Assembly (NCBI RefSeq): GCF_013911965.1
Contig: NZ_JACESE010000010.1
Span: 62,001 to 126,000 of the forward strand
Direction of reading: 5' to 3'
Source: Phenylobacterium sp.
Lineage (GTDB): Bacteria; Pseudomonadota; Alphaproteobacteria; Caulobacterales; Caulobacteraceae
Length of the DNA stretch: 64,000 nucleotides
A program made the position numbers and the translations under genes. The notes under the pieces were generated by a model. The model made no database searches. It saw only the letters and a list, made by a program, of their open reading frames with translations, and was not told the DNA's origin. This document shows, in pieces, positions 27,220 to 47,737 of this stretch (its first letter is position 1; each line of letters begins with the position of its first letter).

Positions 27220-28320
27220 ATGTCGTCCATGGATCAGATCACCCGGCCCCCGGCCGGGCCCGCCTATGAACTGCGCGTCGGCGAGCCGGCGCTGGAAGGC
27301 GCGGGCGTGTGGCTCGTCATCCCTTGCTACAAGGTCCGCGACCATATCCTGAAGGTCATCGCCCGAACCCCGCCCTGGGTCGAAGGGATCGTCTGCGTCG
27401 ACGACGCCTGTCCCGATGGTTCGGGCGATTTCATCGAGGCGCAGACGCGCGATCCGCGCGTGCGCGTCCTGCGCCTGCCCCAGAATCAGGGCGTCGGCGG
27501 CGCCACAATGGCGGGCTATGCCGAGGCCGCCCGGCTGGGCGGGCGGATTCTGGTGAAGGTCGACGGCGACGACCAGATGGACCTGGCCTATCTGCCGCAA
27601 CTGGTCGCGCCGATCCTGCTGGGCGAGGCCGACTACGCCAAGGCCAACCGCTTCACCTCCATCAGCCATCTCCAGTCCATGCCGAGGGTGCGCATCTTCG
27701 GCAATGCGGGCCTCAGCTTCCTGGCCAAGCTGTCCACGGGGTACTGGACCAGCTTCGATCCGACGAACGGCTTCACGGCGATCGAGGCGAGCGTCGCCCG
27801 GCTCGTGACCCAGAAACGGGTGGCCAAGCGGTTCTTCTTCGAAACCGACCTGCTCTACCACCTGGGCACCCTGCGCGCGGTCGTCCGCGACGTGCCCATC
27901 CCCGCGCGCTACGGCGACGAAGTCAGCAATCTCAGCGTCAGGTCGGTGGTCGCCCCCTTCGCGCTCAGGCACCTGCAGAACTTCGTCCGCCGGGTGCTTG
28001 GCCAGTACTTCGTGCGCGACTTCAACGTGGCGACCCTGGAGCTCATCTTCGGCGCCGCCTTCCTGGCCTTCGGCGCCCTCTACGCCCTGCACTGGATCGC
28101 CGTGCGCGAGCCGGGCCAGGCCGCGTCGGCCGGCGTGGTCATGGCCGCGGCCCTGCCGGTCATCATCGGGGTCCAGCTCCTGCTGCAGGCGATGAACTTC
28201 GACGTCGTCAACGTGCCGACGCGGCCTATCCATCCCTATCTGCGCACGCTGGAGCGGATCGAGGCCGCTGCGCATGCCGAGGCCGAGGCGGCCGCCGATG
28301 CGGGGCCGCGGAGCGCATGA
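27220..28320 (+). CDS. Membrane-anchored glycosyltransferase family 2 protein (DPM1-like)
   Basis: A 366-residue protein. The GT-A domain has WLVIPCYKV at the start, VCVDDACPDGSGD, and the DxD in VKVDGDDQMD. Two predicted transmembrane helices occur near the C-terminus (LIFGAAFLAFGALYALHWIAV and VVMAAALPVIIGVQLLLQ). This is the layout of polyprenyl-phosphate sugar synthases (dolichol-phosphate mannose synthase or ArnC-like), which load a sugar on undecaprenyl phosphate. The adjacent small EamA-like transporter, overlapping by ATGA, fits the flippase of such a lipid-linked sugar. Confidence 0.88.
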   Translation: MSSMDQITRPPAGPAYELRVGEPALEGAGVWLVIPCYKVRDHILKVIARTPPWVEGIVCVDDACPDGSGDFIEAQTRDPRVRVLRLPQNQGVGGATMAGYAEAARLGGRILVKVDGDDQMDLAYLPQLVAPILLGEADYAKANRFTSISHLQSMPRVRIFGNAGLSFLAKLSTGYWTSFDPTNGFTAIEASVARLVTQKRVAKRFFFETDLLYHLGTLRAVVRDVPIPARYGDEVSNLSVRSVVAPFALRHLQNFVRRVLGQYFVRDFNVATLELIFGAAFLAFGALYALHWIAVREPGQAASAGVVMAAALPVIIGVQLLLQAMNFDVVNVPTRPIHPYLRTLERIEAAAHAEAEAAADAGPRSA

Positions 28321-32549: not shown

Positions 32550-33683
32550 TCAGCCGAGCAGGGCCTGCAGCCGCTCCACGCAGCGCAGCCCGACGGCCCG
32601 TGCGCTGAGCTCGGTGCGGATGCGCCTCCGGGCCGCGGCGGCCCGGGCGCGGGCGGCGGCCGGATCGTCCAGGATCTGCTCGATCAGGCGGCTTGCCTGA
32701 GCCACGTCCGGATCGGCCCAGGACTGGCCCTCGCCGTGGATGTACTGGCCGGCGCCGACGGGCACCATGGCGTGGTTCACCAGCGCGGCGGTCGCGCCGT
32801 CCATGAAGTCCATGTTTCCAGACCAGCCCGTGGCGACCACCGGCACGCCCAGCGCCATGGCTTCGGCCATGCCGCGGCCGAAGCCTTCGGACCTGTGCAG
32901 GGAGACGAAGACGTCGGCGCAGCGGAAGAGGTTCTTGACCTCGTTGTCGGAGAGTTCGCGGGTGATCGTCTGGACACGTCCCTTCAGGGCGGCGATGCGC
33001 GCCTCCAGGGCCTTCCGCGCCGGATCGTCGGCCTTGCCGCCCTTGAACTTGATCACCGCATGCAGCGGCGCCTCGGGCCTGCGGGCGACGAGCTGTTCGA
33101 ACGCCGCCAGCACGGCCTCCGGATTCTTGCGCGCGGCGTAGGACGAGAAGTCGAAGGCGAACATCACCACGAAGGCGTGCTCGGGAATGTCGAACCAGCG
33201 CCGGCCGAGGAAGGTCGACAGCTTCATGTCCACCGCCAGGGGGATGCGCGCGACGTCGCGGCCCGTCGCCTCGGTCAGGGCCGTCTGCACGAAGGCCGAG
33301 GGCGCCCAGATGTCGTCGAAGCCCGACAGCAGTTCGGCCCAGGCGGTCGGATACTTCGGCAGCTCCCAGGCGGGGAAGATGATGTTTCGGGCGGCGGCGA
33401 AGTCGGCGCCGTCCAGCCGCTCCCGCACCGTCTCGACCTCGTCGGCGTTCAGGCAGAAAAGGTTGGCGTGGCGCGACAGGCGGCGCGTGACGTCGTCGCC
33501 GAAGGCCCGCTCGAGATCCGGGTCGCGGCCGCGGTCGAGGCCATAGACGTCCAGCAGCCTGGGCCGGACCCCCGCCGCCCGCAGGGCGCGGACGGTGGAG
33601 CGCAGGTGCTCGCCCATGCCGATCGGTGCGAAGGGATGGCCGACCACGGTCAGTTCGCCGAGGCCGGAGTCGGGCAGGCTCAT
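32550..33683 (-). CDS. Glycosyltransferase family 4 protein
   Basis: A 377-residue GT-B protein. The C-terminal domain has SLHRSEGFGRGMAEAMALGVPVVATGWSGN, the EX7E-like motif of GT4. The N-terminal domain begins LTVVGHPFAPIGMGEHLRSTV. The segment FAFDFSSYAARKNPEAVLAAF is shared with the GT4 at 21924-23168, showing common descent. The ATG overlaps the stop of the large repeat-containing glycosyltransferase upstream (ATGA), so it is third in the leftward operon that starts at 37976. Confidence 0.9.
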   Translation of the reverse strand: MSLPDSGLGELTVVGHPFAPIGMGEHLRSTVRALRAAGVRPRLLDVYGLDRGRDPDLERAFGDDVTRRLSRHANLFCLNADEVETVRERLDGADFAAARNIIFPAWELPKYPTAWAELLSGFDDIWAPSAFVQTALTEATGRDVARIPLAVDMKLSTFLGRRWFDIPEHAFVVMFAFDFSSYAARKNPEAVLAAFEQLVARRPEAPLHAVIKFKGGKADDPARKALEARIAALKGRVQTITRELSDNEVKNLFRCADVFVSLHRSEGFGRGMAEAMALGVPVVATGWSGNMDFMDGATAALVNHAMVPVGAGQYIHGEGQSWADPDVAQASRLIEQILDDPAAARARAAAARRRIRTELSARAVGLRCVERLQALLG

Positions 33684-36600
33684 GGCGGCGGCTCCAGCAG
33701 ATCGGCGTCGGCGGCGTTCTTCAGCGCCTCAAGCCAACCGTGGCCGAACCGCACGTCGGGCTCCAGGTGGGCGCCCTCGGCCCATTCGTTCCAGGCGTTG
33801 ACGAAGACGATCCGCTCCTCGCCGAAGTTCTGACGCCGCGTCTCGGCCAGCATGGCCTCGGTCCAGGCCTGGAAGGCGCCGGGGCTCGCATAGTGGAAGA
33901 CGTAGGCGTGGTCCTGCCGCCGGGCGGTGTTGTCCCAGGAGGGGCAGACCCCGCGGAAGCGCTTGTGGCCCGGCGTCGGCGCCGAGAGATAGTGGCGGAC
34001 GAGCTGGCGGTAGTCGCTGACCACGCCCTCAAAGGCGCGGTTGTAGAGCGGGCCGGGCGGGCTGATGGCCTGGGCCGCGCCCATGGGCGGAAACTCGATG
34101 GCCGCGTCGAAGCCGATCGCGCCCGGGTCGGGATAGGTCCCGGCGACGTCGAAGGTCTCCACGAAGGCGAGGTAGATCTCGCCGATCCCCAGGGCCCGCG
34201 CCGTCTTGCGCCACGCCTGCGCCCACTCTGCGGCGTCGGGCAGCAGGCCGGGACGATAGATGACCAGCAGGGGCTTGCCGTCGATGTGGATGTAGTTGTC
34301 GCGCCGCAGCAGGGCCGACATGTCGGTGATCAGGGCCGCGGCGTCGTCGGCGTCATAGGTCTGGGCCAGCAGGACATCCTTCTCCTGGCCGTCCCAGGTC
34401 CGGGTCCAGTTCTCGTTGGCCCAGCAGACGCAGAAGGGGAAGTCGGGCGCATCGGGCGCGGTGAGGTGCTGCAGCGGCTTCTCCAGCACGCGCCGTCCGC
34501 CTGCGAACCAGTAGTAGTAGAAGCAGAAGCCCGAGAGGCCGTAGCGCGCCGCCAGCTCGGCCTGCCGTTTCAGCGCCTCGGCCTGGGACAGGTCGTAGAA
34601 GCCGAGATCCGCCGGCAGGTGCGGCTGGTAGTGGCCGCGATAGTTGGGCAGGGCGCGCGTGACATTGGTCCACTCGGTGAAGCCCGCCCCCCACCAGCGG
34701 TCGTTCTCCGGAATGGCGTGGAACTGCGGCAGGTGGAAGGCGATCGTCCGTACACGGTTCGTCTTGTCGAGCGCCTCGGCCCAGCGCTCGACGAAACGCT
34801 GCTGGTTGCGGGTGGCCAGGCGGTGCTTGTAGCCGGCGTCGATCGAATTGGCCGTGACGCTCAGGTGGTGCACGATCACCGAGGCCGGTTCGTAGACGAT
34901 CTTCAGCCCCTTTTCCCGCAGGCGGAAGCAGAGATCGGCGTCCTCGCAATAGGCGGGGGCGAAGTGGGTGTCGAAGCCGCCAAGGTCGGCGAAGTCCTTG
35001 CGACGCACCGCCAGGCAGGCGCCGGAGGCGTAGTCGACCTCCCGGCGCACGTTCCAGCGCGGCTGATCGGGATCCTGGAACAGGCCGATCATCTCGCTCG
35101 TCCCGTCGCGGTTGATCCGCGCGCCGGCCTCCTGCAGCCGGCCGTCGGGGAACAGCATCTTGGGCGCCGCTGCGCCGACCTGCGGATCGGCCAGGGCGGC
35201 GACCAGCGGCGCCAGCCAGCCGGCCCGCACCTGCACGTCGTTGTTCAGGAAGACCAGGACCTCGCCGCGAGCCTCGTCGATGGCGCGGTTGCAGGTGCGG
35301 ATGAAGCCCAGGTTCTCGTCATTGCGGACGATGCGCAGGCCCGCGACCCGGCTCAGGACCTCGGGCGTCGCGTCGCTGGAGGCGTCGTCGATGACCAGGG
35401 TCTCGGCCTCGGCCAGGCCGCCGGCGGCGGCCAGGGCGCTGAGGCATTCGAGGGTGAAGCGCAGATTGTTGTAGGCCGGAATGATGATCGAGACCCGCGG
35501 CGCCTGCGGTTCGGGCAGGACGATCCTGCCCGCCGCCTCGGCCAGGTCGCCGCTGATCGACACCATCTGCGGCGGCGTCGGCTCGAAAGCCTCGATCCGG
35601 TCGGCCTCGATCCGGCGCCGGACGGCGGTCAGCTCGGCATAGGCCTGCAGGTCATAGGCGGCGGGATCGCGAGTCCGGCCGTTGGCGCGCAGCTGGTCGA
35701 ACAGGCCCGCCGCGCCTGCGCCCGTGACGCCCGAAAGGCCGACGGGCTTCTCGCCGGCGTTGCGCGCCCAGTGCTCCAGGCTGCTCATGGCCGCTGCGGC
35801 GGCCTCGGGATTGGCGGCGAGATAGGCCGCCTCGTCGAAGTCGGCCGCCGGCCACAGGCCTTCGTAGGCGCCCCGCGTGACGTAGTCGGTCAGGGCGTCG
35901 GTCCCGTCGGCGATGGCCCCTTCCTGCTGCACGTAGAAGCCGGAATCGAAGTGCGGGCTCGGGCTGCGGTGCTCGCGGGCGCCGAAGCGGACGAAATGCG
36001 CCAGCGGGTTGAAGCCCTGCGTGCGCAGGTCGCGGTAGCGCTCGGCGTACCAGGTCCCGTCGAACAGGGGGTGCGGATCGCGGCCGGCGTCGGCTCCGGC
36101 GCTCACATAGTCGAGCAGGGGGGCTGTTCCGGCGACGGCGGTCTCGGGATAGCGGTCCAGGTACCAGTCGTTGGCGAAGAGCGGGTGCGGGTCGAAGCCC
36201 TGACGCCAGCCCTCGCGCAGATAGTGCAGCAGCGGGTTCTCGCCGGTGGCCGCCACCGCTTCGCACTGGCCCACATAGTACCGGATGTCGAACAGCGGAT
36301 GGGGGTCGAGACCCCGCGCCGCGCCGCCCAGGAGGAAGTGCTGCAGGACGGTGAGCCCGGTCGCCTCCAGCTCCTCGCCGTGCCGCAGGCGGTAGTCGAC
36401 GACGCTCACCAGCGGATGCGGATCGCGCCCTGCGGCGTCCCCGAGCACCAGGTAGTGGGCCAGCGGCGCCCAGCGCGAGCCGCGGATCTCCGGGTTGCGC
36501 TCCACATAGGCGGCCTGATCGAACAGGGCGCGGGGCGCAAACAGCGGATCGGGGCCGGCGCGGACATAGTCGGCCAGGGTCGAGGCCGGGGCGGCCTCGC

Positions 36601-36868
36601 GGCCGAGGCTCCGGGTCTGGCCGGGATCCCAGACGCCCGAGAGCTGGATGAGCAGGGCCCGGCCGGGCCACTTGCCGCGCGCCAGAACGGGGTGGGCCCG
36701 GCGCGCCAGGCGGGGGAGGCTGAGCCCCCCGGCCCGCCGGCCGGCCGCCTCGCGATAACGGCGCCAGCGGTCGGCGGCGACCGCGGCGGCTTGCAGGTGG
36801 CCGCGCCGGCGCCGGTCCAGGAGGTCGGCGGCGGCCTCGGCCTGAGGAGAGGTCTCGGATGGGGGCAC
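33680..36868 (-). CDS. Repeat - GT2 - WbsX-like multidomain glycosyltransferase
   Basis: A 1062-residue cytoplasmic-looking protein with three parts. Residues about 100-370 hold about seven copies of a 39-residue repeat (for example HPLFDIRYYVGQ and ENPLLHYLREGW). Residues about 457-666 are a GT2 domain (SIIIPAYNNLRFTLECLSAL, VIDDASSDAT, VLVFLNNDV). Residues about 706-1050 are a WbsX-like domain related to GH99-fold proteins (AFHLPQFHAIPENDRWWG, FYYYWFAGGRRVLEKPL, VNAWNEWAEGAHLEPD). GT2-WbsX fusions are known from rhamnan and O-antigen loci; the N-terminal repeats are shared with 38086-40050 and 41099-42340. The GTG at 36868 follows CGGAG. Confidence 0.88.
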   Translation of the reverse strand: MPPSETSPQAEAAADLLDRRRRGHLQAAAVAADRWRRYREAAGRRAGGLSLPRLARRAHPVLARGKWPGRALLIQLSGVWDPGQTRSLGREAAPASTLADYVRAGPDPLFAPRALFDQAAYVERNPEIRGSRWAPLAHYLVLGDAAGRDPHPLVSVVDYRLRHGEELEATGLTVLQHFLLGGAARGLDPHPLFDIRYYVGQCEAVAATGENPLLHYLREGWRQGFDPHPLFANDWYLDRYPETAVAGTAPLLDYVSAGADAGRDPHPLFDGTWYAERYRDLRTQGFNPLAHFVRFGAREHRSPSPHFDSGFYVQQEGAIADGTDALTDYVTRGAYEGLWPAADFDEAAYLAANPEAAAAAMSSLEHWARNAGEKPVGLSGVTGAGAAGLFDQLRANGRTRDPAAYDLQAYAELTAVRRRIEADRIEAFEPTPPQMVSISGDLAEAAGRIVLPEPQAPRVSIIIPAYNNLRFTLECLSALAAAGGLAEAETLVIDDASSDATPEVLSRVAGLRIVRNDENLGFIRTCNRAIDEARGEVLVFLNNDVQVRAGWLAPLVAALADPQVGAAAPKMLFPDGRLQEAGARINRDGTSEMIGLFQDPDQPRWNVRREVDYASGACLAVRRKDFADLGGFDTHFAPAYCEDADLCFRLREKGLKIVYEPASVIVHHLSVTANSIDAGYKHRLATRNQQRFVERWAEALDKTNRVRTIAFHLPQFHAIPENDRWWGAGFTEWTNVTRALPNYRGHYQPHLPADLGFYDLSQAEALKRQAELAARYGLSGFCFYYYWFAGGRRVLEKPLQHLTAPDAPDFPFCVCWANENWTRTWDGQEKDVLLAQTYDADDAAALITDMSALLRRDNYIHIDGKPLLVIYRPGLLPDAAEWAQAWRKTARALGIGEIYLAFVETFDVAGTYPDPGAIGFDAAIEFPPMGAAQAISPPGPLYNRAFEGVVSDYRQLVRHYLSAPTPGHKRFRGVCPSWDNTARRQDHAYVFHYASPGAFQAWTEAMLAETRRQNFGEERIVFVNAWNEWAEGAHLEPDVRFGHGWLEALKNAADADLLEPPP
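35758..36568 (-). repeat. Roughly 39-residue protein repeat array in the large glycosyltransferase
   Basis: About seven degenerate tandem copies, each with Phe-x-x-x-Tyr, an NP(D/E) or similar middle, PLxHY(L/V), then a GxxxGRDPHPL end. The DNA is not identical between copies, so the array is old rather than freshly expanded. Confidence 0.8.
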
Positions 36869-36887
36869 GGGGTCTCCGGGGCGGCGG

Positions 36888-37976
36888 TCAGCTGTCGCCG
36901 AGGATCTCGTCGAGTTCGCGTTCGGCGGCGGCCATCAGGGTCCGGGCCTGCTTCGCCTCGGCTTCCCGGGCGGCCTGGAGCGCGCGGACCTCCGCGTCCA
37001 GCGCTCCGGCGCGCCCCTCTTCGAACTCCGCCCGCTGCCGGGCCTCGAGCAGGTCTGAGCGGGCGAGATCCAGGGCGCAGGTCACCGGCGAGACGAAGGC
37101 GCTCATCGCCTTGCTGAGTTCGGCGAACTGCAGGGCGACCGTGTCGAGAACGTCGGTCGGGGGCGCTTCGCCGCGCGCCGCCGCCTCGAACCATTCGAAG
37201 ACGCGCGCGGCGAGCGGGCCGCTGACCGGCGTCTCAGCCAGGCGCCCCACCGGGGCATTGTGCCGGAGCTCCGACGTCAGAAAGCCGTCGATGGCCTTCT
37301 CCGCCCGCGCGTCCAGCTTCGGAAGCCGGGCTCCGTGGCCGCTCTCGATACGCTCCACCTGGCCGCGCCAGTCGGCCAGCAGGCCCTCATAGGAGACGAA
37401 GGCCCGCGGCAGGCCGCGGGAGCCGGCCTCGGCGGCCAGCATGTAGGCGGCCCAGAGCAGGACCGACTTTTCGGGCGGGAATCCGTTCCGCTTGGCCAGC
37501 GAGCCGGCCACCTCCAGCGGGTGGCGCACGGGAATCACCACGCGCGGGGCGAAGCTCAGTTCCGCCAGCGCCGTCAGCCAGAGCGGCAGCAGCACGCTGA
37601 CCCGCGGGTCCTTCATCAGGGGATAGCGGGCCGCGCCGTACTCCTCGTCGAACAGATCGGTGGCGCGGGTGACCCAGCGCCGCTCCTCCCGCGGCTCGAG
37701 CGGCCGATAGGGGAAGGCGAACGGATCGTCCCAGGCGCCGCCGGCCGCCCGCAGGCGCTGGTCGTTGAAGATGGCGATGCGCCAGGGTTCGAAATAGCCC
37801 TTGGCGTTGTACTCGTCGCCCGGCATCACGTTCTGCGGCAGGTCCGCCCCGGCCAGGGCCAGGACCTGGGTCGCCGCCGATGTGCCCGAGCGATGCATGC
37901 CGAGCACGAGATAGGCCGCCCGCCCGGCGGGGGCGGGTCCGGCGGCTTCGGCGGTCGGGCTCGTCGTTCGCGTCAC
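36888..37976 (-). CDS. Sulfotransferase family protein with C-terminal coiled coil
   Basis: A 362-residue protein. The 5'-phosphosulfate loop is LVLGMHRSGTSAATQVL near residues 24-40, and the 3'-phosphate-binding element is VVIPVRHPLEVAGSLAKRN. The last 90 residues (LARSDLLEARQRAEFEEG ... REAEAKQARTLMAAAERELDEI) are predicted to be a helical coiled coil that could mediate assembly with partners. It starts with a GTG at 37976 and is the first gene of the leftward operon with the GT2-WbsX fusion (19-base gap) and a GT4. It is divergent from the repeat-bearing glycosyltransferase at 38086. Confidence 0.85.
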   Translation of the reverse strand: MTRTTSPTAEAAGPAPAGRAAYLVLGMHRSGTSAATQVLALAGADLPQNVMPGDEYNAKGYFEPWRIAIFNDQRLRAAGGAWDDPFAFPYRPLEPREERRWVTRATDLFDEEYGAARYPLMKDPRVSVLLPLWLTALAELSFAPRVVIPVRHPLEVAGSLAKRNGFPPEKSVLLWAAYMLAAEAGSRGLPRAFVSYEGLLADWRGQVERIESGHGARLPKLDARAEKAIDGFLTSELRHNAPVGRLAETPVSGPLAARVFEWFEAAARGEAPPTDVLDTVALQFAELSKAMSAFVSPVTCALDLARSDLLEARQRAEFEEGRAGALDAEVRALQAAREAEAKQARTLMAAAERELDEILGDS

Positions 37977-38085
37977 GCCTGTGCATTATGGCCCCGCGCG
38001 CCGCGCCGCAAGGCGAGAACCGGCGGTTGATCCGGTCAGCCATATGTTGCACACAGCCGGCCGGCCTCGCAGAGGGGAGCCCCGC

Positions 38086-40050
38086 ATGGCCGCCGCGGCC
38101 GCCGATCAAGCCGACTTTTCGCTGATTTCCACCGCGCTGGACCCGGACTTCTACCGCAGCGTCTATCCCGACGTCGCCCAGTCCGGCGTCGAACCCAGCG
38201 CCCATTACGCGAACGCCGGCTGGCGCGAAGGCCGCGACCCGGCGCCCTGGTTCTCCACCCGCGCCTATCTGGCGGCCTATCCCGAGATCGAGGCCGCCGG
38301 CGCCAACCCGTTCGCCCATTTCCTGGCCCAGGGCCGCCACGAGGGCCGGGCCATCCAGTCGTCCGACCAGGCCCTGCGTTACTACCGGGGCCGGCGCGAG
38401 CGGACCGCCTGGACCTACCGTCCCGAGCCGCCGGAAGCCGATGGGCCCTCGTCGGGCGCCGGCGAGGCCGTCTCGCCGGCGATCCTCCACCGCGAGCTCG
38501 TGGAGCCGGAGTTCGACGCCCGCTTCTATCTCGCGGAGAACGCGGACGTGGCCGAAGGCGGCGGCGATCCGCTCGACCACTTCCTGACCACCGGCTGGCG
38601 CGAAGGCCGCGACCCGGCGCCCTGGTTCTCCGTCTCGGACTATCTGGAGCTCAATCCGGACATCGCCGCGGCGGGGGTCAATCCGTTCGTCCATTTCCTC
38701 CAGGCGGGCCGCCGCGAGGGGCGGACGGCCAAGCTCGAGCTCGGCTTCCGCTACCGCGTCCTCGCCGGACTGACGCCGCTCGCCGAGCGCATGGCCGCCG
38801 CCGCCGCCTTTGACGAGCCGCATGCGCCAGGGACGGCGGACGACCTCCGCCAGCAGCTGTCGGTCTCCCGGAGCGGGCTTGCCGACCTGCACCTGACCGT
38901 CAGCCACGACGACTTCGCCGCCAATCTCGGCGGCGTTCAGCTCTGCCTTCAGCGGGAGAGCGCCGCGGCGGCCGCCACGGGCCGCGACCACCTGCACCTC
39001 TACCCGGCCAATTCCCGGCCCATGCTGCGGCCGGCCAGCCAGGCGGACCTGCTCGGCCTGCTGTGGAACGGCGAACACATCGGCCACTATCCCGCCAGTC
39101 TCGTCGCCGAGGTGCTCGAGGCGGCGCTGCAGGACATCGCGCCGGGCCGTCGCAGCCTCGCCATTCACAGCCTCCTGGGGCACGCCGTCACCGACATCCT
39201 GCGGGTGGTCCGCGCGGCCGGATTCCGGGACGGCTGGTTCTGGGTGCACGATTTCGCCAGCGCCTGCGCCAGCTATCACCTTCTGCGCAATGACGTGGCC
39301 GACTGCGGCGCGCCGCCCCCGGGCAGCGCCGCCTGCGGGATCTGCCTCTATGGCGAGGCCCGGCGTTTCCACATGGACGAGCATCGCCGCCTGTTCGAGA
39401 CCCTGCGGCTGTCGGTGGCCGCCCCCAGTCAGGCGGCGCTCGACACCTGGCGGCGCGGCGCCGATCTGCCGGCGGTGCGTGAAGTGGTCGCGCCCCTTGC
39501 GCGGCTGCAGCCGAGGGGCGCCGCCGAGGCAGGCGCGGCGGGGGACCGCCCCTTCCGTCTGGCCTTTCCGGGCCTGCCCAGCAATCTCAAGGGCTGGCCG
39601 GTCTTCCGCGAGCTCGTCCTGCGCTTCGCCGAGGATCCCCGCTACGAATTCCTCCATCTGGCCCGCGACGACGTCGGCGGCCTGCCGGCCCGCTTCCATC
39701 CGGTGACGGTCAGCGAGGCGAGCCCGCGCGCCATGCAGGACGCGATCGAGTCGCTGGAGGTGGACGCCGTGATGATCTGGTCCATCTGCCGCGAGACCTT
39801 CTCCTTCACCACGCACGAGGCGGCCGCCTCCGGCGCCGCCATCCTGACCGGTCCCGACAGCGGCAATGTCGCGGCCTTCGTCGAGGCCACCGGGCTCGGC
39901 CGGCTGCTGGAGACCGAGGCGGCCCTGTTCGACCTCTTCGAGACGGGCGAGGTGCTTCAGCTCGCCCGTGCGCGCCGTGCGCCGCAGCTCAGCGACCTGG
40001 TCTTCAGCAGCCTCACCATCGACCTGCTGGACGAGGAGGCCGCGGCGTGA
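38086..40050 (+). CDS. Repeat-containing GT4-like glycosyltransferase
   Basis: A 654-residue protein. Two paired-repeat modules lie at residues about 10-95 and 137-215 (FYRSVYPDVAQSG, NPFAHFLAQGRHEGR and FYLAENADVAEGG, NPFVHFLQAGRREGR). They contain an identical 39-base DNA repeat, so one module arose by duplication. The C-terminal 400 residues form a GT-B-like glycosyltransferase with WSICRETFSFTTHEAAASGAAILTG, a variant of the GT4 EX7E motif, and a small Cys-containing stretch (CGAPPPGSAACGICLYGEA). The ATG at 38086 follows GAGGGGAG. It is followed with GTGA overlap by another glycosyltransferase. Confidence 0.82.
   Translation: MAAAAADQADFSLISTALDPDFYRSVYPDVAQSGVEPSAHYANAGWREGRDPAPWFSTRAYLAAYPEIEAAGANPFAHFLAQGRHEGRAIQSSDQALRYYRGRRERTAWTYRPEPPEADGPSSGAGEAVSPAILHRELVEPEFDARFYLAENADVAEGGGDPLDHFLTTGWREGRDPAPWFSVSDYLELNPDIAAAGVNPFVHFLQAGRREGRTAKLELGFRYRVLAGLTPLAERMAAAAAFDEPHAPGTADDLRQQLSVSRSGLADLHLTVSHDDFAANLGGVQLCLQRESAAAAATGRDHLHLYPANSRPMLRPASQADLLGLLWNGEHIGHYPASLVAEVLEAALQDIAPGRRSLAIHSLLGHAVTDILRVVRAAGFRDGWFWVHDFASACASYHLLRNDVADCGAPPPGSAACGICLYGEARRFHMDEHRRLFETLRLSVAAPSQAALDTWRRGADLPAVREVVAPLARLQPRGAAEAGAAGDRPFRLAFPGLPSNLKGWPVFRELVLRFAEDPRYEFLHLARDDVGGLPARFHPVTVSEASPRAMQDAIESLEVDAVMIWSICRETFSFTTHEAAASGAAILTGPDSGNVAAFVEATGLGRLLETEAALFDLFETGEVLQLARARRAPQLSDLVFSSLTIDLLDEEAAA
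38218..38256 (+). repeat. 39-base direct repeat, copy 1
   Basis: This is identical to 38593-38631 and encodes the GWREGRDPAPWFS end of a protein repeat. The copies are 375 bases (125 codons) apart and in frame, consistent with a within-gene duplication of a two-repeat module or with gene conversion. Confidence 0.9.
38593..38631 (+). repeat. 39-base direct repeat, copy 2
   Basis: This is the second identical copy of the repeat at 38218-38256, in the same reading frame of the same gene. The flanking sequence has diverged on both sides. Confidence 0.9.
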
Positions 40051-41090
40051 AGGTCCTCTGCTATTCCAGCTTCACCTTCTCCTATCTCAACCGCGCCCGC
40101 GTGCTCTACGCGACCCTGCGCCGGTTCCACCCGGACTGGGAGCTGGTGGCCCTGATCACCGACGAGCCGCCGCCGGGATTTGACTTCGACCCCGCCCGGG
40201 AGCCGTTCGACCGCGTGGTCTGGGCCCAGGACCTGGGCATCGCCGACTTCCGCTCCTGGCTCTTCCGGCACGATGTCGTGGAGGTCTGCACGGCGGTGAA
40301 GGGCCCCTTCATCCACCAGGCCTGCGACCAGGCCGACATCGTCATCTATCTCGATCCGGACACCGCCCTGCTGGCGCCGCTCGACCCCCTGATAGAGATG
40401 CTGCAGCAGGACGAGATCCTGCTCACGCCGCATCTGATCGATCCCAACACCGACCGCACCGCCATCCTCGACAACGACCTGTCGGCCTCGCGGACAGGGA
40501 TCTTCAATCTCGGCTTCGTCGCCATCCGGACGACGGGGGAGGGCGCCCGCTTCGCCCGGTGGTGGAACGACCGGCTGCTGTCCTTCTGCTATGACGACAT
40601 GCCCCGCGGCCTCTTCGTCGACCAGCGCTGGTGCGACCATGTCCCGGCGCTGTTCGACAAGGTGAAGGTGGTGCGCGACCCCGGCTACAACGTGGCCAGC
40701 TGGAACCTGTCCCAGCGCAGGGTGGCGATCGGCAAGGACGGGGCGATCACGGTCAACGGGGCGCCGCTGCGCTTCTGGCACTTCACCAAGCTCGGCCCCA
40801 CCGGGGACCTGATGACCAAGAAGTATGCGGGCGACAACTTCGAGGTCTACGAGATCTGGAACTGGTACAAGCGCCAGGTGACCGCGGCCACCGATCCGGC
40901 CATCCCGGCGCGCTACTGGGCCTATGGCGACTATGCGGACGGAACGCCCATCGCCAAGGCGCATCGGGTGCTTTGGCGCGAAGCCGACGACCTGCGCGCC
41001 CACTTCGCCGATCCCTTCGCCGCGGGGCCGGGAAGCTACCTGGAATGGCTGATCGCCTCGGGCCACGCCGCAGCGCAGCCGGCGGCGTGA
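40047..41090 (+). CDS. Glycosyltransferase, GT-A fold with DPD motif
   Basis: A 347-residue protein opening with VLCYSSFTFSYLNRARVLYATLR and carrying YLDPDTALLAPLD near residue 107, a DxD-like metal site. The C-terminal half has RDPGYNVASWNLSQRRV and NGAPLRFWHFTKLGP, closely matching the N-terminal part of the 763-residue protein at 23165-25456. The GTG start overlaps the previous stop (GTGA) behind GAGGAGG. It is the middle gene of a three-gene unit (38086, 40047, 41099), so it probably acts with the repeat proteins on one glycan. Confidence 0.85.
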   Translation: MKVLCYSSFTFSYLNRARVLYATLRRFHPDWELVALITDEPPPGFDFDPAREPFDRVVWAQDLGIADFRSWLFRHDVVEVCTAVKGPFIHQACDQADIVIYLDPDTALLAPLDPLIEMLQQDEILLTPHLIDPNTDRTAILDNDLSASRTGIFNLGFVAIRTTGEGARFARWWNDRLLSFCYDDMPRGLFVDQRWCDHVPALFDKVKVVRDPGYNVASWNLSQRRVAIGKDGAITVNGAPLRFWHFTKLGPTGDLMTKKYAGDNFEVYEIWNWYKRQVTAATDPAIPARYWAYGDYADGTPIAKAHRVLWREADDLRAHFADPFAAGPGSYLEWLIASGHAAAQPAA

Positions 41091-41098
41091 GCTTGACA

Positions 41099-42340
41099 AT
41101 GGCCAAGGCCAGTCCGACAGCGGATCGTATGGCGGGAAACGAGAAGACGGCGCAGCCGGCGCAGGCGATCCATCCGCTGGTGGACAAGGCCCGGCGCGTG
41201 GCCGAGCAGCATCGCCGGCTGGTGGCCGATCTGGCTCGAGCCGAGGGCGAAGTCGCCGTGACACGGGCCAGCCTCGCGGTCGCCCTGAGCGCCGCCCTCG
41301 CCGGCCGCGCGCGGCGGGAGGGCGAGGCGCGCCAGGCGCTGGTCGCCTTGCATCGAAAGGCCGCGCGCTCCAGGCCGCGCCGGCGCAACCGGCTCGCTCG
41401 GGGCGCCGAACGGCTGCTGCTGCGCCTGGGCGCGCCGGGCCGGACCGTGATCCTCGCCCGGTCGGGGCTGTGGGCCGCTGGGGGCGGGCTCCGCGGAAGG
41501 CTTTCGGCCTGGCGGAGCATGCTGAATCACGTGCGCGGCGGCGCGGCGGCCGGGGCCCAGCCGCCCGCCCTGATCGGCCACGACTTCTATCTGCAGCATT
41601 ATCCGGACGTGGCGTCCCTGGGGACAGCGCCGCTTCTGCACTATCTGACGGCCGGCGCGGCGGAGGGCCGTACGCCGCACCCGCTCTTCGATCCCCACTT
41701 CTACGCCGCGGCCAACGCGGCCGATCTCGCCGCCACGGGCCTGTCGCCCCTGGAGCATTTCGTGCGCCTGGGCGCCGCGCAGGGCCGCGATCCTCATCCG
41801 CTCTTCAGCGTCGACTGGTATGTCGCCCAGCGTCAGGATCTCGCCGCGGCGGGCGTTAATGCGCTTGCCCACTATCTGGACGCCGGCTGGCGTGAGGGCC
41901 TGAGTCCGCACCCCCTGTTCGACCCCGCCTATTACGACGCCCAGATCGCGGCCGCCGAGCGCGGGACGCCGCCCCTGCTGCACTATCTGACGGCGGGCTG
42001 GCGCGCGGGGCTGAAGCCCCATCCCCTCTTCGATCCGGCCTGGTATCTGGAGCGCAATGCGGACGTGGCGGCCAGCGGCCAGGAGCCGCTCACGCACTAC
42101 GTGCTGGCCGGCGGCCTGGAAGGCCGCGATCCCAGCGGCTGGTTCGTGTCGCGCCACCATCAGGCGGCGCGCGGCCTGCGGGTGGTCAACCCGCTGGTGG
42201 ACTATCTGACCGGCGGCGCCTGGCAGGTGGAGGAACCGCGGCCGGGCTTCTCCTCGGCGGCCTATCTGGCCAGCCATCCCGAACTCGCCGAAGGGGGGCT
42301 GACGCCGCTCGAACACTGGGCCCGGCGATCGGATCGCTAG
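41099..42340 (+). CDS. Repeat-only protein with N-terminal helical region
   Basis: A 413-residue protein with no recognisable enzyme domain. Residues about 15-150 are Ala/Arg-rich and helical, probably a coiled coil (VDKARRVAEQHRRLVADLARAEGEVA) followed by a strongly basic segment. From about residue 155 to the end there are seven copies of the roughly 39-residue repeat also seen in 33680-36868 and 38086-40050. No signal peptide is visible, so it is probably cytoplasmic, perhaps a scaffold for the repeat-bearing glycosyltransferases. The start could instead be a GTG at 41087 that overlaps the upstream stop (GTGA). It is the last gene before the secretion genes. Confidence 0.8.
   Translation: MAKASPTADRMAGNEKTAQPAQAIHPLVDKARRVAEQHRRLVADLARAEGEVAVTRASLAVALSAALAGRARREGEARQALVALHRKAARSRPRRRNRLARGAERLLLRLGAPGRTVILARSGLWAAGGGLRGRLSAWRSMLNHVRGGAAAGAQPPALIGHDFYLQHYPDVASLGTAPLLHYLTAGAAEGRTPHPLFDPHFYAAANAADLAATGLSPLEHFVRLGAAQGRDPHPLFSVDWYVAQRQDLAAAGVNALAHYLDAGWREGLSPHPLFDPAYYDAQIAAAERGTPPLLHYLTAGWRAGLKPHPLFDPAWYLERNADVAASGQEPLTHYVLAGGLEGRDPSGWFVSRHHQAARGLRVVNPLVDYLTGGAWQVEEPRPGFSSAAYLASHPELAEGGLTPLEHWARRSDR
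41561..42337 (+). repeat. Seven-copy roughly 39-residue protein repeat array
   Basis: Seven tandem units are visible. Units 1-5 end in the sequence PHPLF or a close variant and have the block PLLHYLTAG or PLEHFVRLG in the middle; units 6 and 7 are more degenerate. Compare the arrays in the genes at 33680 and 38086. Confidence 0.85.
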
Positions 42341-42443
42341 ACCTCGTCCCAGGGACGGGAGCCGGTCGTCGGCGCCCCGGACAGGCGCTGTCTCCAGGCA
42401 CGGGACTTGCTGTGGCGTGGCCGCCCGGGAGCGGGAGGCGCCA

Positions 42444-42471
42444 TTGACTTGCAGGCCTGCGGTCGTCATGT
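42444..42471 (+). promoter_or_regulatory. Candidate promoter for the type I secretion genes
   Basis: TTGACT at 42444-42449 and TCATGT at 42466-42471 are separated by 16 bases within the 192-base gap upstream of the ABC transporter gene. The -35 box is good and the -10 box is weak. The gap suggests the secretion pair is expressed separately from the glycosyltransferase unit. Confidence 0.35.
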
Positions 42472-42532
42472 GTCGCCGGCTCAAGCCGCCCGCAATCCGG
42501 GTCGTTTCAGGCTGCGACGGACGCTCCCAAGT

Positions 42533-44257
42533 ATGAAGATCCTCAATCCGTTCGCGTCCCTGCCGGACAATCTGCTGACGCGCGCCCTGAAGGAGGGGAT
42601 CTCGCCGCTGGCCTTTGCGGGCCTGTTCAGCCTCGTCAGCAACCTGCTCTATCTGGCGCTGCCGCTCTACACCTTCCAGATCTACGGCCGCGTGCTGTCG
42701 AGCTACAGCGTGCCGACCCTGCTGGTCCTGACCGCCGGCGCCCTGGTGGTGTTCCTGATCTCCAGCGTCATCGACGAACTCCGCACCCGGGTGCTGATCA
42801 ACTACGGCATCATGCTCGATCAGCGCGTCTCCAGCCACGTCTTCGCCGCCCTGTTCGAGGAACGGCGCGGCGGCGCCCAGTCGCGCTCCCAGGCCCTGCG
42901 GGACCTGGACAGCTTTCGCCAGGTCCTGACCGGACCGGTGTTCGCCGCCGTCTTCGACCTGCCGTGGATGCCGCTCTTCATCGGCATCCTCTTCGTCATC
43001 GATCCCCTGGTCGGGGTGCTGACCCTGGCCGGGGCGGCCGCCCTGTTCGGCCTGGCCATGCTGCAGGACAAGCTGTCGCGTCCGCCGCTCCAGCAGTCGA
43101 ACGAGGCGGCGCTGAAGGGCTACGCCTTCACCGAGGCCGGTCTGCGCAATTCCGAGGTCGTGCGCGCCATGGGCATGCTCGAGGCGCTCGGCGCGCGCTG
43201 GTCGACCTTCCGCACCCAGTCGATCGAGCGCGGGGCCTGGGCCTCGCAGCGCACCAGCGTGCTGTCCAACGCCACCAAGTTCACCCGCATGGCGATCCAG
43301 ATCCTGGTGATCGGCCTGGGCGCCTATCTGGTGGTGACCGGCGAGATCCACCCCGCGCTTCTGTTCGCCAACATGATCCTGGCCAGCCGCGCCCTGCAGC
43401 CGGTGGAACGCCTGGTCGGCGCCTGGGACGGCGTCGTCAACGGGGGCCGCGCCTTCGACCGGCTGAACGCCCTGTTCAACGCCTATTCCATCGCCCCGCC
43501 GAGCACGAGCCTGCCGCGGCCGCTCGGCCAGCTGTCCATCGAGGGCGTCAGCTTCGCCCCGCCCGGCGCCGAGCGCTACGTGCTGCAGGGCCTGAACTTC
43601 AAGATCGAGCCCGGCGAGATGCTCGGCGTCATCGGACCGTCCGGCGCCGGCAAGTCCACCCTGGCGCGCCTGATGGTCGGGGTGTGGCGGCCCAACGCCG
43701 GACACGTGCGCCTCGACGGCGGCGACGTGTTCAGCTGGAACCGCACCGAGTTCGGCCGCCACGTCGGCTACCTGCCGCAGGACACCGAGCTCTTCGCCGG
43801 CACGATCCGCGACAACATCGCCCGCTTCCGCCCCGACGTCCCCGATGAGGCGGTGGTCGAGGCCGCCACAATGGCCAATGTCCACCCGCTGATCCTGCGC
43901 CTGCCCAAGGGCTATGAGACCGAGCTGACCGACGGCGGCTACGTGCTCTCGGCCGGCCAGAGGCAGCGGATCGGCCTGGCCCGAGCCCTGCTCGGCGACC
44001 CGCGCCTGCTGGTCCTGGACGAGCCGAACGCCAGCCTCGACGCCGAGGGCGAGGAAGCGCTGATGCGGGCGATCGACACGATGAAGAGCCGCGGCGCGAC
44101 CATCGTCGTGGTCTCGCACAAGCCCAACGTCTTCCGCTCCGCCGACAAGATGCTCGTCCTGCGCGAGGGCCGCATGGAGCTGTTCGGCCCGCGCGAGGCG
44201 GTGATGGCGCGCTTCGCCCAGCCCTCCGCCGTCCGTCCCGTGGAGGCCGGCCGATGA
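42533..44257 (+). CDS. Type I secretion ABC transporter (RsaD/PrtD-like)
   Basis: A 574-residue fused permease-ATPase. The N-terminal membrane domain (about residues 25-320) starts GLFSLVSNLLYLALPLYTFQIYGRVL as in PrtD/RsaD-type exporters, with no C39 peptidase-like N-domain. The ATPase domain has Walker A GPSGAGKSTLARLMVG, signature LSAGQRQRIG, Walker B LLVLDEPNASLD and H-loop VVSHKP. The length matches Caulobacter RsaD (about 578). It energises one-step secretion of RTX proteins; the obvious substrate is the RTX protein two genes downstream. No outer-membrane TolC/RsaF gene is in the window. Confidence 0.93.
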   Translation: MKILNPFASLPDNLLTRALKEGISPLAFAGLFSLVSNLLYLALPLYTFQIYGRVLSSYSVPTLLVLTAGALVVFLISSVIDELRTRVLINYGIMLDQRVSSHVFAALFEERRGGAQSRSQALRDLDSFRQVLTGPVFAAVFDLPWMPLFIGILFVIDPLVGVLTLAGAAALFGLAMLQDKLSRPPLQQSNEAALKGYAFTEAGLRNSEVVRAMGMLEALGARWSTFRTQSIERGAWASQRTSVLSNATKFTRMAIQILVIGLGAYLVVTGEIHPALLFANMILASRALQPVERLVGAWDGVVNGGRAFDRLNALFNAYSIAPPSTSLPRPLGQLSIEGVSFAPPGAERYVLQGLNFKIEPGEMLGVIGPSGAGKSTLARLMVGVWRPNAGHVRLDGGDVFSWNRTEFGRHVGYLPQDTELFAGTIRDNIARFRPDVPDEAVVEAATMANVHPLILRLPKGYETELTDGGYVLSAGQRQRIGLARALLGDPRLLVLDEPNASLDAEGEEALMRAIDTMKSRGATIVVVSHKPNVFRSADKMLVLREGRMELFGPREAVMARFAQPSAVRPVEAGR

Positions 44258-45639
44258 AGTTCGACCTGACGCCGTTCAGACCCGTGCTGGGCCCCATCCG
44301 TCCGCTCGATGCGCGCTTCGACGTGGGCGACCACGAGCCGGACCGCGAGCTGAAGCAGCGCCTGTGGCGGCCGATCGTCGTCGGCTGCATCTTCGTCGGG
44401 GTCTTCGTGGTCGGCCTGCTGATCTGGGCCGCCCTGGCCAATATCAGCGCCGCCACCGTCGCGCCGGCCGAGGTGCGCGTGGAGGCCAACCGCAAGACCC
44501 TGCGCCACCGTGAAGGCGGCGTGGTCTCGCAGATCCTGGTGCGCGAGGGCGAACTGGTCGAGGCGGGCGAGCCGCTGCTGCGCTTCGACGACGTCCAGGC
44601 CCGGGCGGCCGTCGACGTGCTGCAGAATCAGACGGACGCGGTGCTGGCCCAGGTCGCGCGCTTCGCCGCCGAATCGACGGGTTCGCGCAACCTGACCTTC
44701 CCCGAGGCGCTGACCAGCCGGATGTCCGACCCGCGGGTGGCGGGGATCGTCCGCGACCAGCAGCTCCTGTTCACCACGCGCCTGCAGTTCTTCGAGAGTC
44801 AGCAGGCGGTGCTCACCCAGCGGGTCGAGCAGCTGGCGACCCAGATGGTCGGCGTGCAGGCCCAGATCGACTCCGTCGAGCAGCAGATCGAGCTGACCGA
44901 GGAGGAGCTGGCCGGCTACCAGACGCTTTTCGAGAAGGGCTATGCGCCCAAGACGCTGATCCTGCGCTACGAGCGGAGCCTGTCGGAGCTGAAAGGCCGT
45001 CAGGGCGCCCTCCTGGCCGAGCTCAACCGTCTGCGTCAGGCCCAGGGCGAGGCGCGCCTGCAGCTCACCACCCTGCGCGACGAGCGAATCAGCCAGGCGG
45101 CCGAAGGGCTGCGCCAGATGCAGACCCAGCTTTCGGACGTGGGCCCCAGGCTGACCGCCGCCCAGCAGGTGCTCGACCGCACCACGGTGCGCTCGCCCGT
45201 GGCCGGTTACGTGCTGAACCTGACCCAGTTCACGGTCGGCGGCGTGGTGGCGCCCGGCGAACTGCTGATGGACGTGGTGCCGGCCGACGCGGCGCTCATC
45301 GTCACCGCGCGTATTCCGCCGAAGGACATCGACAGCGTCCATGTGGGCCAGGAGGCGCGGGTGACCATCTCGGCCTTCAATTCCCGCAAGGTCGCGCCCC
45401 TCGACGCCACCGTGGTGACGGTCTCGGCCGACCGCCTGCTCGACGCCAACACCGGCGAGGCCTATTTCCAGGCCGATCTGCGCATCGCGCCGGAGGCCCT
45501 CAAGGAGCTGCCCGCCGGTCAGGAACTGTCCCCCGGCATGCCGGCCCAGGCGATGATCGTCACCGGCGAACGCTCCATCCTTTCCTACCTGGTCAATCCG
45601 CTCACGGACACGATCGGGGAGGCCATGCGCGAGGAGTAG
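44254..45639 (+). CDS. Type I secretion membrane fusion protein (RsaE/HlyD family)
   Basis: A 461-residue periplasmic adaptor. It has a cytoplasmic N-terminus, a single membrane helix at about residues 45-68, a lipoyl-like half (VEANRKTLRHREGGVVSQILVREGELVEAGEPLLRFD), long coiled-coil helices (QIDSVEQQIELTEEELAGYQTLFEKGYAPK) and a second lipoyl half (RTTVRSPVAGYVLN). The VVAPGELLMDVVP motif belongs to the HlyD/PrtE family. It overlaps the ABC transporter gene by ATGA and couples it to an outer-membrane TolC-like channel encoded elsewhere. Confidence 0.94.
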   Translation: MKFDLTPFRPVLGPIRPLDARFDVGDHEPDRELKQRLWRPIVVGCIFVGVFVVGLLIWAALANISAATVAPAEVRVEANRKTLRHREGGVVSQILVREGELVEAGEPLLRFDDVQARAAVDVLQNQTDAVLAQVARFAAESTGSRNLTFPEALTSRMSDPRVAGIVRDQQLLFTTRLQFFESQQAVLTQRVEQLATQMVGVQAQIDSVEQQIELTEEELAGYQTLFEKGYAPKTLILRYERSLSELKGRQGALLAELNRLRQAQGEARLQLTTLRDERISQAAEGLRQMQTQLSDVGPRLTAAQQVLDRTTVRSPVAGYVLNLTQFTVGGVVAPGELLMDVVPADAALIVTARIPPKDIDSVHVGQEARVTISAFNSRKVAPLDATVVTVSADRLLDANTGEAYFQADLRIAPEALKELPAGQELSPGMPAQAMIVTGERSILSYLVNPLTDTIGEAMREE

Positions 45640-45862: not shown

Positions 45863-47737
45863 ATGGCTAACTATTTCTTCGAGACCATCACGGCTGCGCA
45901 GGCGCTCGGGTACACCGCGGGCACCGACCAGCTGGCGTTCCAAGACGCGAACGCCTCTGCCTCGCAGGTGACGGTCCGCTACATCCCGGCAGCGGGCGCC
46001 GATCCGGCGCGCGTCAGCCTGACCTACAACGGCGTGACGAAGATCTTCGGCACCGGCATCTACGGTGAGAACGACTTCTTCTTCTCGAACGGCTCGGTCC
46101 TGTTCGTCGGCGACCCGGCCGCGGGTGAAACCCAATCCGGTTCGTCCGCCATGGACGGCCTGTTCGGCGGCGACGGCGCCGACAGCCTGGCCGGCCTGGA
46201 AGGCGCGAACTTCATCCAAGGCAACGCCGGCAACGACACCACCTCGGCCGGTTCTTCGGCTGACGTCGTGTACGGCGGTCAGGGCAACGACCAGCTGGCG
46301 GCCGGCACCGGCAACAACTGGATCCAGGGCAACCTCGGCAACGACTCGATCACGGGCGGTTCCTCGACCACCTACGCCGAGACGCTGCTGGGCGGTCAGG
46401 GCAACGACACCATCAACGGTGGCGACGGCCGTGACTTCCTGAACGGCAACCTGGGCAACGACTCGCTGCTCGGCGCCGCTGGCAACCAGACCCTCATGGG
46501 TGAAGCCGGCACCGACACCGTCGATGGCGGCGCCGGTAACGACTACATCGATGGCGGCGACGACGCCGACAACCTGACGGGCGGCGACGGCAACGACACC
46601 GCCTTCGGCGGCACGGGCACCGACACGCTGGCCGGCGGCAACAATAACGACTACCTGCAGGGCAATGTCGGCGCTGACTCCGTCAACGGCGGCGCGGGCA
46701 ACGACACCCTGTACGGCGGTCAAGACGCCGACGAGATGGACGGCGACGCCGGCAACGACCGCGCCAACGGCAACCTCGGCAACGACTCGATGACGGCTGG
46801 CGCCGGCAACGACACCCTGCTGGGCGGCCAAGGCGACGACACGATCGTCGGCACCTCGGGTTCCAACATCCTGAACGGCAACCTGGGCAACGACTCGGTC
46901 CTCGGCGGCACCGACGCTGACGTCATCTACGGTGAAGACGGCGCCGACGCCCTCGATGGCGGCGCTGGCAACGACTCCGTCGACGGCGGCGCGGGCAACG
47001 ACAACGTGTCGGGCAGCGCGGGCAACGACACGCTCGTGGGTCAAGACGGCAACGACCAAGTCGACGGCGGCGGCGACAACGACGCCATCTCGGGTCAGGC
47101 CGGCAACGACACCCTCACCACCGGCGCGGGCAACGACACCGCCTCCGGCGGCGAAGGCAACGACTCGATCGACGGTTCGGCTGGCGGCAACAACGTGATG
47201 GCGGGTGACGCCGGCAACGACACCGTCACCGGTGGCGCCGGCAACGACACCGTCACCGGCGGTGACGGCAACGACACCCTCAACACCGGCGACGGCGCCA
47301 ACGCCGCGGTCGGCGGCGCGGGCAACGACAGCATCACCGGCGGTGCGAACGCCGACACCATCACGGGCGGCGCTGGCGCCGACACCGTGACGGGCGCTGC
47401 TGGCGCTGACGTCTTCGTCTTCGGCGCGGGCGACACGTCGAACAGCACGCCGATCGATCGGATCACCGACTTCACGACGGCCGATGACTCCATCAACGTG
47501 GGCATCGCCGGCACGGCTACGAACTACATCGAAGCCAACGAAGTCGCCGATTACGCGACCGCTCTGAACACCGCCTCGAGCATCATCCAGGGCGGCGCTC
47601 AGGACATCGTGGTGGTCGACGTCGGTGCGGACGTGTACGTCTTCGCCGACATCACCGGCACGAACGCGGTCGGCACGGTCGTCCACCTGGTGGGCGTCCA
47701 GCTCGGCACGATCGACGAAACCGACTTCGTGGCCTAA
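45863..47737 (+). CDS. RTX calcium-binding protein, probable type I secreted surface or S-layer-like protein
   Basis: A 624-residue acidic protein without signal peptide or cysteine and with almost no lysine. After an N-terminal domain of about 95 residues come about 420 residues of glycine/asparagine/aspartate nonapeptide repeats (GGAGNDT, GGDGNDT types) that bind calcium and fold as beta-rolls. The last 110 residues (DVFVFGAGDTSNSTPIDRITDF to the terminal DETDFVA) are a typical uncleaved C-terminal type I secretion signal. It lies just after the RsaD/RsaE-like pair, as expected for its substrate. It is much shorter than Caulobacter RsaA (1026 residues) and lacks an RsaA-size N-terminal LPS-anchoring domain, so S-layer function is inferred. 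Confidence 0.9.
   Translation: MANYFFETITAAQALGYTAGTDQLAFQDANASASQVTVRYIPAAGADPARVSLTYNGVTKIFGTGIYGENDFFFSNGSVLFVGDPAAGETQSGSSAMDGLFGGDGADSLAGLEGANFIQGNAGNDTTSAGSSADVVYGGQGNDQLAAGTGNNWIQGNLGNDSITGGSSTTYAETLLGGQGNDTINGGDGRDFLNGNLGNDSLLGAAGNQTLMGEAGTDTVDGGAGNDYIDGGDDADNLTGGDGNDTAFGGTGTDTLAGGNNNDYLQGNVGADSVNGGAGNDTLYGGQDADEMDGDAGNDRANGNLGNDSMTAGAGNDTLLGGQGDDTIVGTSGSNILNGNLGNDSVLGGTDADVIYGEDGADALDGGAGNDSVDGGAGNDNVSGSAGNDTLVGQDGNDQVDGGGDNDAISGQAGNDTLTTGAGNDTASGGEGNDSIDGSAGGNNVMAGDAGNDTVTGGAGNDTVTGGDGNDTLNTGDGANAAVGGAGNDSITGGANADTITGGAGADTVTGAAGADVFVFGAGDTSNSTPIDRITDFTTADDSINVGIAGTATNYIEANEVADYATALNTASSIIQGGAQDIVVVDVGADVYVFADITGTNAVGTVVHLVGVQLGTIDETDFVA
46185..47400 (+). repeat. RTX nonapeptide-coding repeat array
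   Basis: The nine-codon (27-base) period is marked by a recurrent GGCAACGAC core. Interspersed among canonical GGxGxD units are about six variant blocks encoding (I/L)(Q/N)GN(L/V/A)GNDS, spaced at irregular multiples, in which the first Asp/Gly positions are replaced by Asn. Confidence 0.9.

Follow-up and report, generated by a model that had tools for sequence, protein, structure and literature searches.

In glycan assembly that depends on an ABC transporter, a coiled-coil protein is described as scaffolding the complex at the membrane and holding its polymerases there (PMC11231755), and ORF7 of Klebsiella O4 as carrying a TPR-like helical bundle (PMC11231755, PMC3482155). Here, we report the analysis of REP, a stand-alone repeat protein encoded in a 64,000-nucleotide stretch of Phenylobacterium sp. 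(assembly GCF_013911965.1, contig NZ_JACESE010000010.1, positions 62,001 to 126,000; hereafter the window, to which all plain coordinates refer). Tandem repeats of short helices are also found on or beside other glycosyltransferases, as in the TPR and Sel1 adaptors and the TPR array of O-GlcNAc transferase. Moreover, the S-layer locus of Caulobacter holds together the RTX protein RsaA, a type I exporter and O-polysaccharide genes.

Like WbdD, WbbB and ORF7-O4, REP has a long (here predicted) helix and a basic amphipathic segment, and its gene shares a region with glycosyltransferase genes and a Wzm/Wzt-like pair. However, in contrast to WbdD and WbbB, no terminator domain (kinase, methyltransferase or glycosyltransferase) was matched in REP, and its array consists of an unnamed repeat held in common with enzymes. 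The three short helices per unit of the REP model differ from TPR and Sel1, and neither family was matched when 22 REP orthologues and 10 diverse arrays were compared with Pfam at E values up to 1. ALF repeats (PF03752) come closer in a single actinomycete stand-alone protein (E=2e-5), although its 25.0 bits lie below the cut-off of 25.4, the best stretch covers just 15 residues and only one of the ten diverse arrays scores at all. As in the Caulobacter S-layer locus, RTX and type I exporter genes stand beside polysaccharide genes, whereas full-length REP was seen in Phenylobacterium alone among 199 genomes sampled from the family (the genus included), the best match outside the genus spanning positions 136-325 of 395. 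Taken together, we see about an even chance that REP is a non-catalytic, probably membrane-associated scaffold subunit of a cytoplasmic glycan-assembly complex. The parts of REP are as follows.

41099..42340, + strand: REP, stand-alone repeat protein of 413 residues
41174..41362, + strand: REP residues 26-88, one helix of 63 residues in the structure model, probable coiled coil
41363..41473, + strand: REP residues 89-125, basic amphipathic linker with SGLW at its end
41570..42337, + strand: seven repeat units of REP (profile and model), five strong and the final two degenerate

The REP model (mean predicted local distance difference test, pLDDT, 86.9; predicted template-modelling score, pTM, 0.81) places helix 26-88 first, followed by three linker helices and seven three-helix repeats, each unit being built of short helices of approximately 7, 6 and 9 residues. 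No enzyme domain was matched with Pfam or NCBIfam, and the helix, linker and repeats occupy all 413 residues of the model. Windows of the linker reach a moment of 0.66-0.69 with a charge of +4 to +6. In an amphipathic-helix scan whose cut-offs were chosen after inspection of REP, 16 of 5433 windows passed: four in REP (three of them in the linker), five in the protein encoded at 49985-53203 (+; 1072 residues, with a C-terminal CmcI-type methyltransferase and about 860 unassigned residues ahead of it) and seven in a non-native frame of a GNAT gene. The net charge of a 42-residue linker has a median of +9 in the 49 of 61 REP orthologues where the motif was found. The predicted long helix, the basic amphipathic linker, the array and the lack of a matched enzyme domain suit a scaffold.

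To follow the repeat, five REP units were combined into a profile, which was run unfiltered on the 733 stop-to-stop frames (at least 40 residues) of the window. Besides REP itself (E=2e-100, a self match), two frames were recovered, a GT2-WbsX fusion (E=7e-62) and a GT4-like enzyme, here GT4rep (E=3.5e-45); no further frame was significant, the next best having E=0.15. The three neighbouring frames in which a preliminary description of this DNA had noticed one common repeat lie at the coordinates given there and do share it. The period, put there at roughly 39 residues, was measured as 38 (range 37-39), and the unit consensus is LFDPAWYLAQNPDVAAAGLNPLVHYLRAGAREGRDPHP, about 38 residues long, in which certain H, Y, W and R residues are strongly conserved. 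The two enzymes and their arrays are located as follows.

38086..40050, + strand: GT4rep, two repeat pairs and a GT-B domain (profile, model and Foldseek)
38140..38349, + strand: GT4rep repeat pair 1 (profile)
38512..38727, + strand: GT4rep repeat pair 2 (profile)
33680..36868, - strand: GT2-WbsX fusion with a REP-like N-terminus
35744..36526, - strand: the seven repeat units of the fusion (profile)

Copy numbers agree with the preliminary description for both enzymes: the fusion has seven units (9.7 to 51 bits, weakest in the final two), and GT4rep four, arranged as two pairs (21 to 50 bits). The seven copies claimed for REP stand as a count, with the qualification that five are strong and two degenerate (3.6 and 10 bits). 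In 66 loci of the genus the profile detected seven units in 43, six in 15 and four to five in 6, and the frame was broken in 2. These two, L091 and L098 (Phenylobacterium J426 and J367), come from assemblies with canu contig names, and read errors are likely. In 21 aligned REP orthologues the array is intact at 48-59% identity.

In the window proteins, the repeat falls under no Pfam, NCBIfam or PHROGs family. Across the 32 sequences compared with Pfam, matches were scattered and single, the best being DUF7669 (8e-6) and ALF (0.005), in one member each. No PDB sequence matched the repeat at a meaningful E value, and 13 stretches of viral contigs fitted a pattern but none encoded a relative. In literature searches, which left most subscription papers outside coverage, no paper with a title naming such a repeat, and none containing its NPDVAA string, was found; nor, with the same coverage, was anything joining Phenylobacterium, type I secretion and glycosyltransferase, or RTX glycosylation with type I secretion. 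Thus, at the level of sequence, the repeat is without a name in Pfam, NCBIfam and PHROGs and without a solved relative. In its own genome it is confined to REP, GT4rep and the GT2-WbsX fusion, further copies having been sought twice and none found.

Comparison of the REP and GT4rep profiles aligned 179 columns (E=8e-34), and the GT4rep model (pLDDT 86.3, pTM 0.71) shows repeat pairs with the unit pattern of REP. Pfam gave no match to the C-terminal glycosyltransferase region of GT4rep. Even so, the modelled C-terminal domain has a GT-B fold (Foldseek best E=2e-8, 157 PDB matches at E≤0.001), and all 50 matches listed are glycosyltransferases, for example WaaG, PimA, BshA and glycogen synthase, which bears out the GT4-like label. 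GT4rep and REP lie in one operon with a third gene between them.

40047..41090, + strand: 347-residue protein with a YLDPDT motif, putative glycosyltransferase without a Pfam family (here the 40047 protein)

The GT4rep stop (40050) overlaps the start of this gene (40047), and REP starts 8 bases past its stop. We take the YLDPDT motif to be a glycosyltransferase sign. A paralogue of the 40047 protein, also without a Pfam family, is encoded in the window at 24527-25441 (-).

GT4rep was found in 91 of 101 Phenylobacterium genomes and REP, whose rows were assigned by hand and then recounted, in 87, all 87 of which also have GT4rep. Ten genomes lack both; of these, G032 retains the WbsX fusion. REP rows are missing from four genomes that do have GT4rep. 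Two of them, G055 and G083, have this gene near the low end of a contig, which is its downstream side, at 1.3 and 0.5 kb, respectively, and the other two assemblies, G016 and G091, are 85% and 74% complete. The Fisher value for REP with GT4rep is 1e-11, uncorrected for descent and computed on 88 REP genomes, that is, with G091 included. The G091 row was later rejected as REP because its array belongs to the fusion type. As REP has no matched enzyme part and is co-encoded and co-occurring with GT4rep, it most likely serves the reaction path of this enzyme. WbsX, in contrast, was found in just 32 of the 101 genomes, so that REP is not linked to the presence of both neighbours.

Synteny was examined by tblastn of 25 window genes against 74 fetched loci, many of them truncated at a contig end. 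Assignments were made in 73 loci for REP, 64 for the 40047 protein, 62 for the type I ABC transporter, 59 for GT4rep, 56 for the RTX gene and 32 for the WbsX fusion. The recurring string consists of the sulfotransferase-like gene (-) followed by GT4rep, the 40047 protein, REP, the type I ABC gene, HlyD and RTX, all on the + strand. Eight loci of other taxa were set aside, leaving the 66 mentioned above, from 63 of which the REP frame was extracted. When only loci with enough flank are taken, GT4rep is never more than 4.5 kb away from REP (53 of 53 loci) and the 40047 protein adjoins REP in 54 of 58. The remaining neighbours in the window are listed below.

36888..37976, - strand: sulfotransferase-like protein (Sulfotransfer_3 under the cut-off), syntenic throughout the genus
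42407..44257, + strand: type I secretion ABC transporter, PrtD type; likelier start ATG 42533
44254..45639, + strand: HlyD-type adaptor of the type I system
45863..47737, + strand: RTX calcium-binding protein, probable type I cargo, without this repeat
25510-26271, - strand: Wzt-like ABC ATPase (ABC_tran)
26262-27230, - strand: Wzm-like ABC-2 permease (ABC2_membrane)

The Wzt-like and Wzm-like genes, as we presumptively name the pair at 25510-27230, lie in the same window about 14 kb from REP. Of the loci with enough flank, 49 of 52 have the RTX gene no more than 7 kb from REP. The ABC gene, on the strand of REP, has its start at most 2.6 kb away in 57 of 58, though within 0.8 kb in only 3 of 58. 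A minus-strand gene sits between REP and the ABC gene in all five other loci inspected, which argues against membership of REP in a type I operon; in the one locus scanned (L034:11219-12025:-) it encodes DUF6270 (E=1e-44). With this opposite-strand gene set between it and the type I genes, REP closes the glycosyltransferase operon in these five loci, and an exporter-docking reading, with REP as part of a type I operon, was dropped. The window itself has no such gene, but a gap of about 190 bases (42341-42532) ahead of the likely ABC start.

The history of the array could be traced through the fusion. REP residues 63-411 align to the fusion at 43%, REP units 1-7 run parallel to fusion units 1-7, and five of seven units find their best match in the unit of equal number. 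Out of 5040 unit orders, just 2 reach this fit, counting the true one. On this alignment, REP is a collinear paralogue of the N-terminus of the fusion and the arrays share descent. In L054, L058, L069 and L071 a REP-like N-terminus is fused to a partial WbsX and the GT2 part is gone, as if the catalytic part were decaying. In G091, a solitary fusion-type array of 368 residues (L248:3786-4889:+; 53% to the fusion, 40% to REP) has no enzyme part after it; it adjoins the sulfotransferase-like gene near Wzm and occupies the place of the GT2-WbsX fusion of other species. Other species carry instead a second GT4rep copy with one repeat pair. According to hand-compiled lists for the 91 GT4rep genomes, 27 have the fusion at the locus, 39 a second GT4rep and none both, with a Fisher value of 5e-9; in a tree of ABC and 40047 proteins (50 rows) the two states form essentially two main clades (4 and 3 changes) and an independent-pairs test gave p=1. 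G003 and G052 have a second GT4rep plus a WbsX frame elsewhere, that of G003 without the repeat. This two-clade distribution indicates a history of enzyme change with REP retained, not independent swaps. The REP array is thus retained in the genus while the adjacent repeat enzyme varies by clade, being a WbsX fusion, an eroded WbsX or a second GT4rep.

From these observations we infer the following role. The long helix would make REP oligomeric, and the basic linker would keep it at the inner membrane. There, the seven-unit helical array may position GT4rep, joined in some species by the GT2-WbsX fusion or by a second GT4rep, so that these enzymes and the 40047 protein could act on one growing glycan, which would probably leave through the Wzm/Wzt-like transporter. 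REP would then be a variant of the known scaffolds without a terminator, its contact surface being the repeat that the enzymes bear too. The preliminary description had suggested a scaffold from the three neighbouring proteins, in which contacts between like repeats or a common glycan ligand might hold the enzymes together. The scaffold itself is partly supported, by the co-encoding and co-occurrence with GT4rep (87/87), the helix-linker-array architecture and the lack of a matched enzyme domain.

Several points weigh against a scaffold role. The coiled coil, although probable, is called from the single long predicted helix, and its heptad count is weak, with a hydrophobic fraction of at most 0.67 at any core register. 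Wzm was matched in 22 and Wzt in 19 of the 74 loci, compared with 62 for the type I ABC gene, so that type I genes are commoner near REP than the proposed glycan exporter. The optional WbsX leaves no fixed three-protein complex, and since REP is paralogous to the fusion N-terminus, the shared repeat first signals common descent here. For its part, the exclusion between fusion and second GT4rep was discarded as statistical evidence, as it amounts essentially to two clades and not to independent events. Finally, the repeat occurs in many glycan enzymes and in secreted RTX proteins, and is thus no marker of one complex; as an intracellular assembly role is not obvious for the latter, its basic property may differ.

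This wider distribution was seen in an alphaproteobacterial sample, where the repeat is present in 42 of 387 genomes and 31 of 264 genera. Sixty regions taken from the best rows (30 genomes) contained 67 repeat frames, 32 of which are RTX-like by a simple pattern (at least two RTX nonapeptide motifs). In 24 of these 32, no more than 15 residues follow the array before the C-terminus, and the same holds for 7 of the 35 others. The difference (Fisher 8e-6) is only descriptive, as 9 genomes supplied all 24 frames and the sampling drew on the best rows. In the remaining eight RTX-like frames the array sits elsewhere, near the N-terminus in five. REP, GT4rep and the fusion themselves gave no HemolysinCabind (RTX nonapeptide) match with Pfam. 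RTX proteins ending in several units and a short tail include those of L174, L177, L182, L193, L196, L207 and L209, among others. Type I signals occupy about 60 residues at the C-terminus (PMC3034196), so that units standing at the C-terminal end of RTX proteins overlap the expected signal region. Among the frames with fewer than four motifs, 43 of 45 were scanned (two very long ones being excluded), giving 10 GT2, 9 Glyco_trans_1_4, 4 RgpF, 1 WbsX and 10 RTX. In plasmids, 75 records match, the best rows being glycosyltransferases, methyltransferases, GH99-like proteins and M10 peptidases. Overall, the glycan enzymes bearing the repeat comprise GT2, GT4, RgpF, WbsX, GT61, GT92 and a methyltransferase, and the secreted bearers RTX, M10 and S8 proteins: one unnamed repeat is in use in two compartments.

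In an actinomycete metagenome-assembled genome, a stand-alone protein of 11 repeats (L107:9923-11302:+) is followed by a GT4/GT2 enzyme and a Wzt with Wzt_C, with a GHMP kinase and a nucleotidyltransferase also among the neighbours; no type I gene was present in the nine neighbour frames scanned. In L198 and L222, which belong to another family, homologues of GT4rep and the 40047 protein stand together near RTX genes, and L222 also has an ABC transporter and an outer-membrane factor nearby; no stand-alone repeat protein was found in either 18-kb region. Sulfotransferase-like genes lie near the pair in both, at L222:3928-5505:+ (Sulfotransfer_4) and, recognized by eye and without a Pfam match, at L198:12560-13312:+. 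Apart from these two loci, the regions sampled outside the genus gave no support to a general tie between repeat-bearing enzymes and type I secretion.

The span of one module across glycan enzymes and secreted RTX, M10 and S8 proteins makes it possible, if clearly less probable than a scaffold, that the repeat is a carbohydrate-binding helical module and REP a free glycan-binding or chain-handling protein. The repeat of the enzymes would then hold the growing glycan and that of the RTX proteins would tether them to surface glycans. The conserved H, Y, W and R positions would fit binding; however, the same residues are kept in the enzyme and secreted families, as expected of structural residues. 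Moreover, this genome encodes no repeat-bearing secreted protein, enzyme-type and RTX-type arrays met in one genome just once (G635) in a partial reading of the frames, and the matches that REP and the ten arrays gave in Pfam include no family of carbohydrate-binding modules.

The proximity of the RTX and same-strand ABC genes to REP, and the recurrence of GT4rep and 40047 homologues near RTX genes in L198 and L222, could also mean that the RTX protein is glycosylated by this locus while still in the cytoplasm and only then exported by the type I system, with REP as an adaptor or holder that presents the unfolded cargo to GT4rep and the proteins working with it. We consider this unlikely. In the five further loci inspected, the opposite-strand gene stands between REP and the type I system; in the sampled regions, type I genes are mostly missing beside the repeat enzymes of other genera; and the actinomycete stand-alone case has a Wzt but no type I gene in the nine neighbour frames scanned. 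Besides, S-layer export and O-polysaccharide genes are kept together in the Caulobacterales for surface anchoring, which would account for such proximity as well.

It is likewise unlikely that REP is what remains of a duplicated WbsX fusion, its array serving as a mere spacer or stability element without a binding role. The collinearity with the fusion N-terminus, the eroding WbsX of four loci and its loss from the fusion-type frame of G091 agree with this. However, REP is found in 87 of the 101 genomes, with an intact array in the 21 orthologues aligned, and WbsX in 32, although a mere relic should be the first of the two to decay. Least probable of all, and in our view unlikely, is that the repeat is a docking code for cytoplasmic enzymes, their adaptor and, in related bacteria, export cargo that bears it at the C-terminus, with REP in Phenylobacterium linking a glycosylation complex to type I export; if true, an RTX surface protein would be sugared in the cytoplasm and then secreted, revealing a general glycosylation-coupled type I secretion route.

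If REP is indeed the scaffold of a glycan-assembly complex, it would show bacteria changing the enzymes of such a complex while the frame stays. As REP consists of little beyond the repeat and a long helix and is kept in most of the genus, it offers a simple handle on the function of this repeat.

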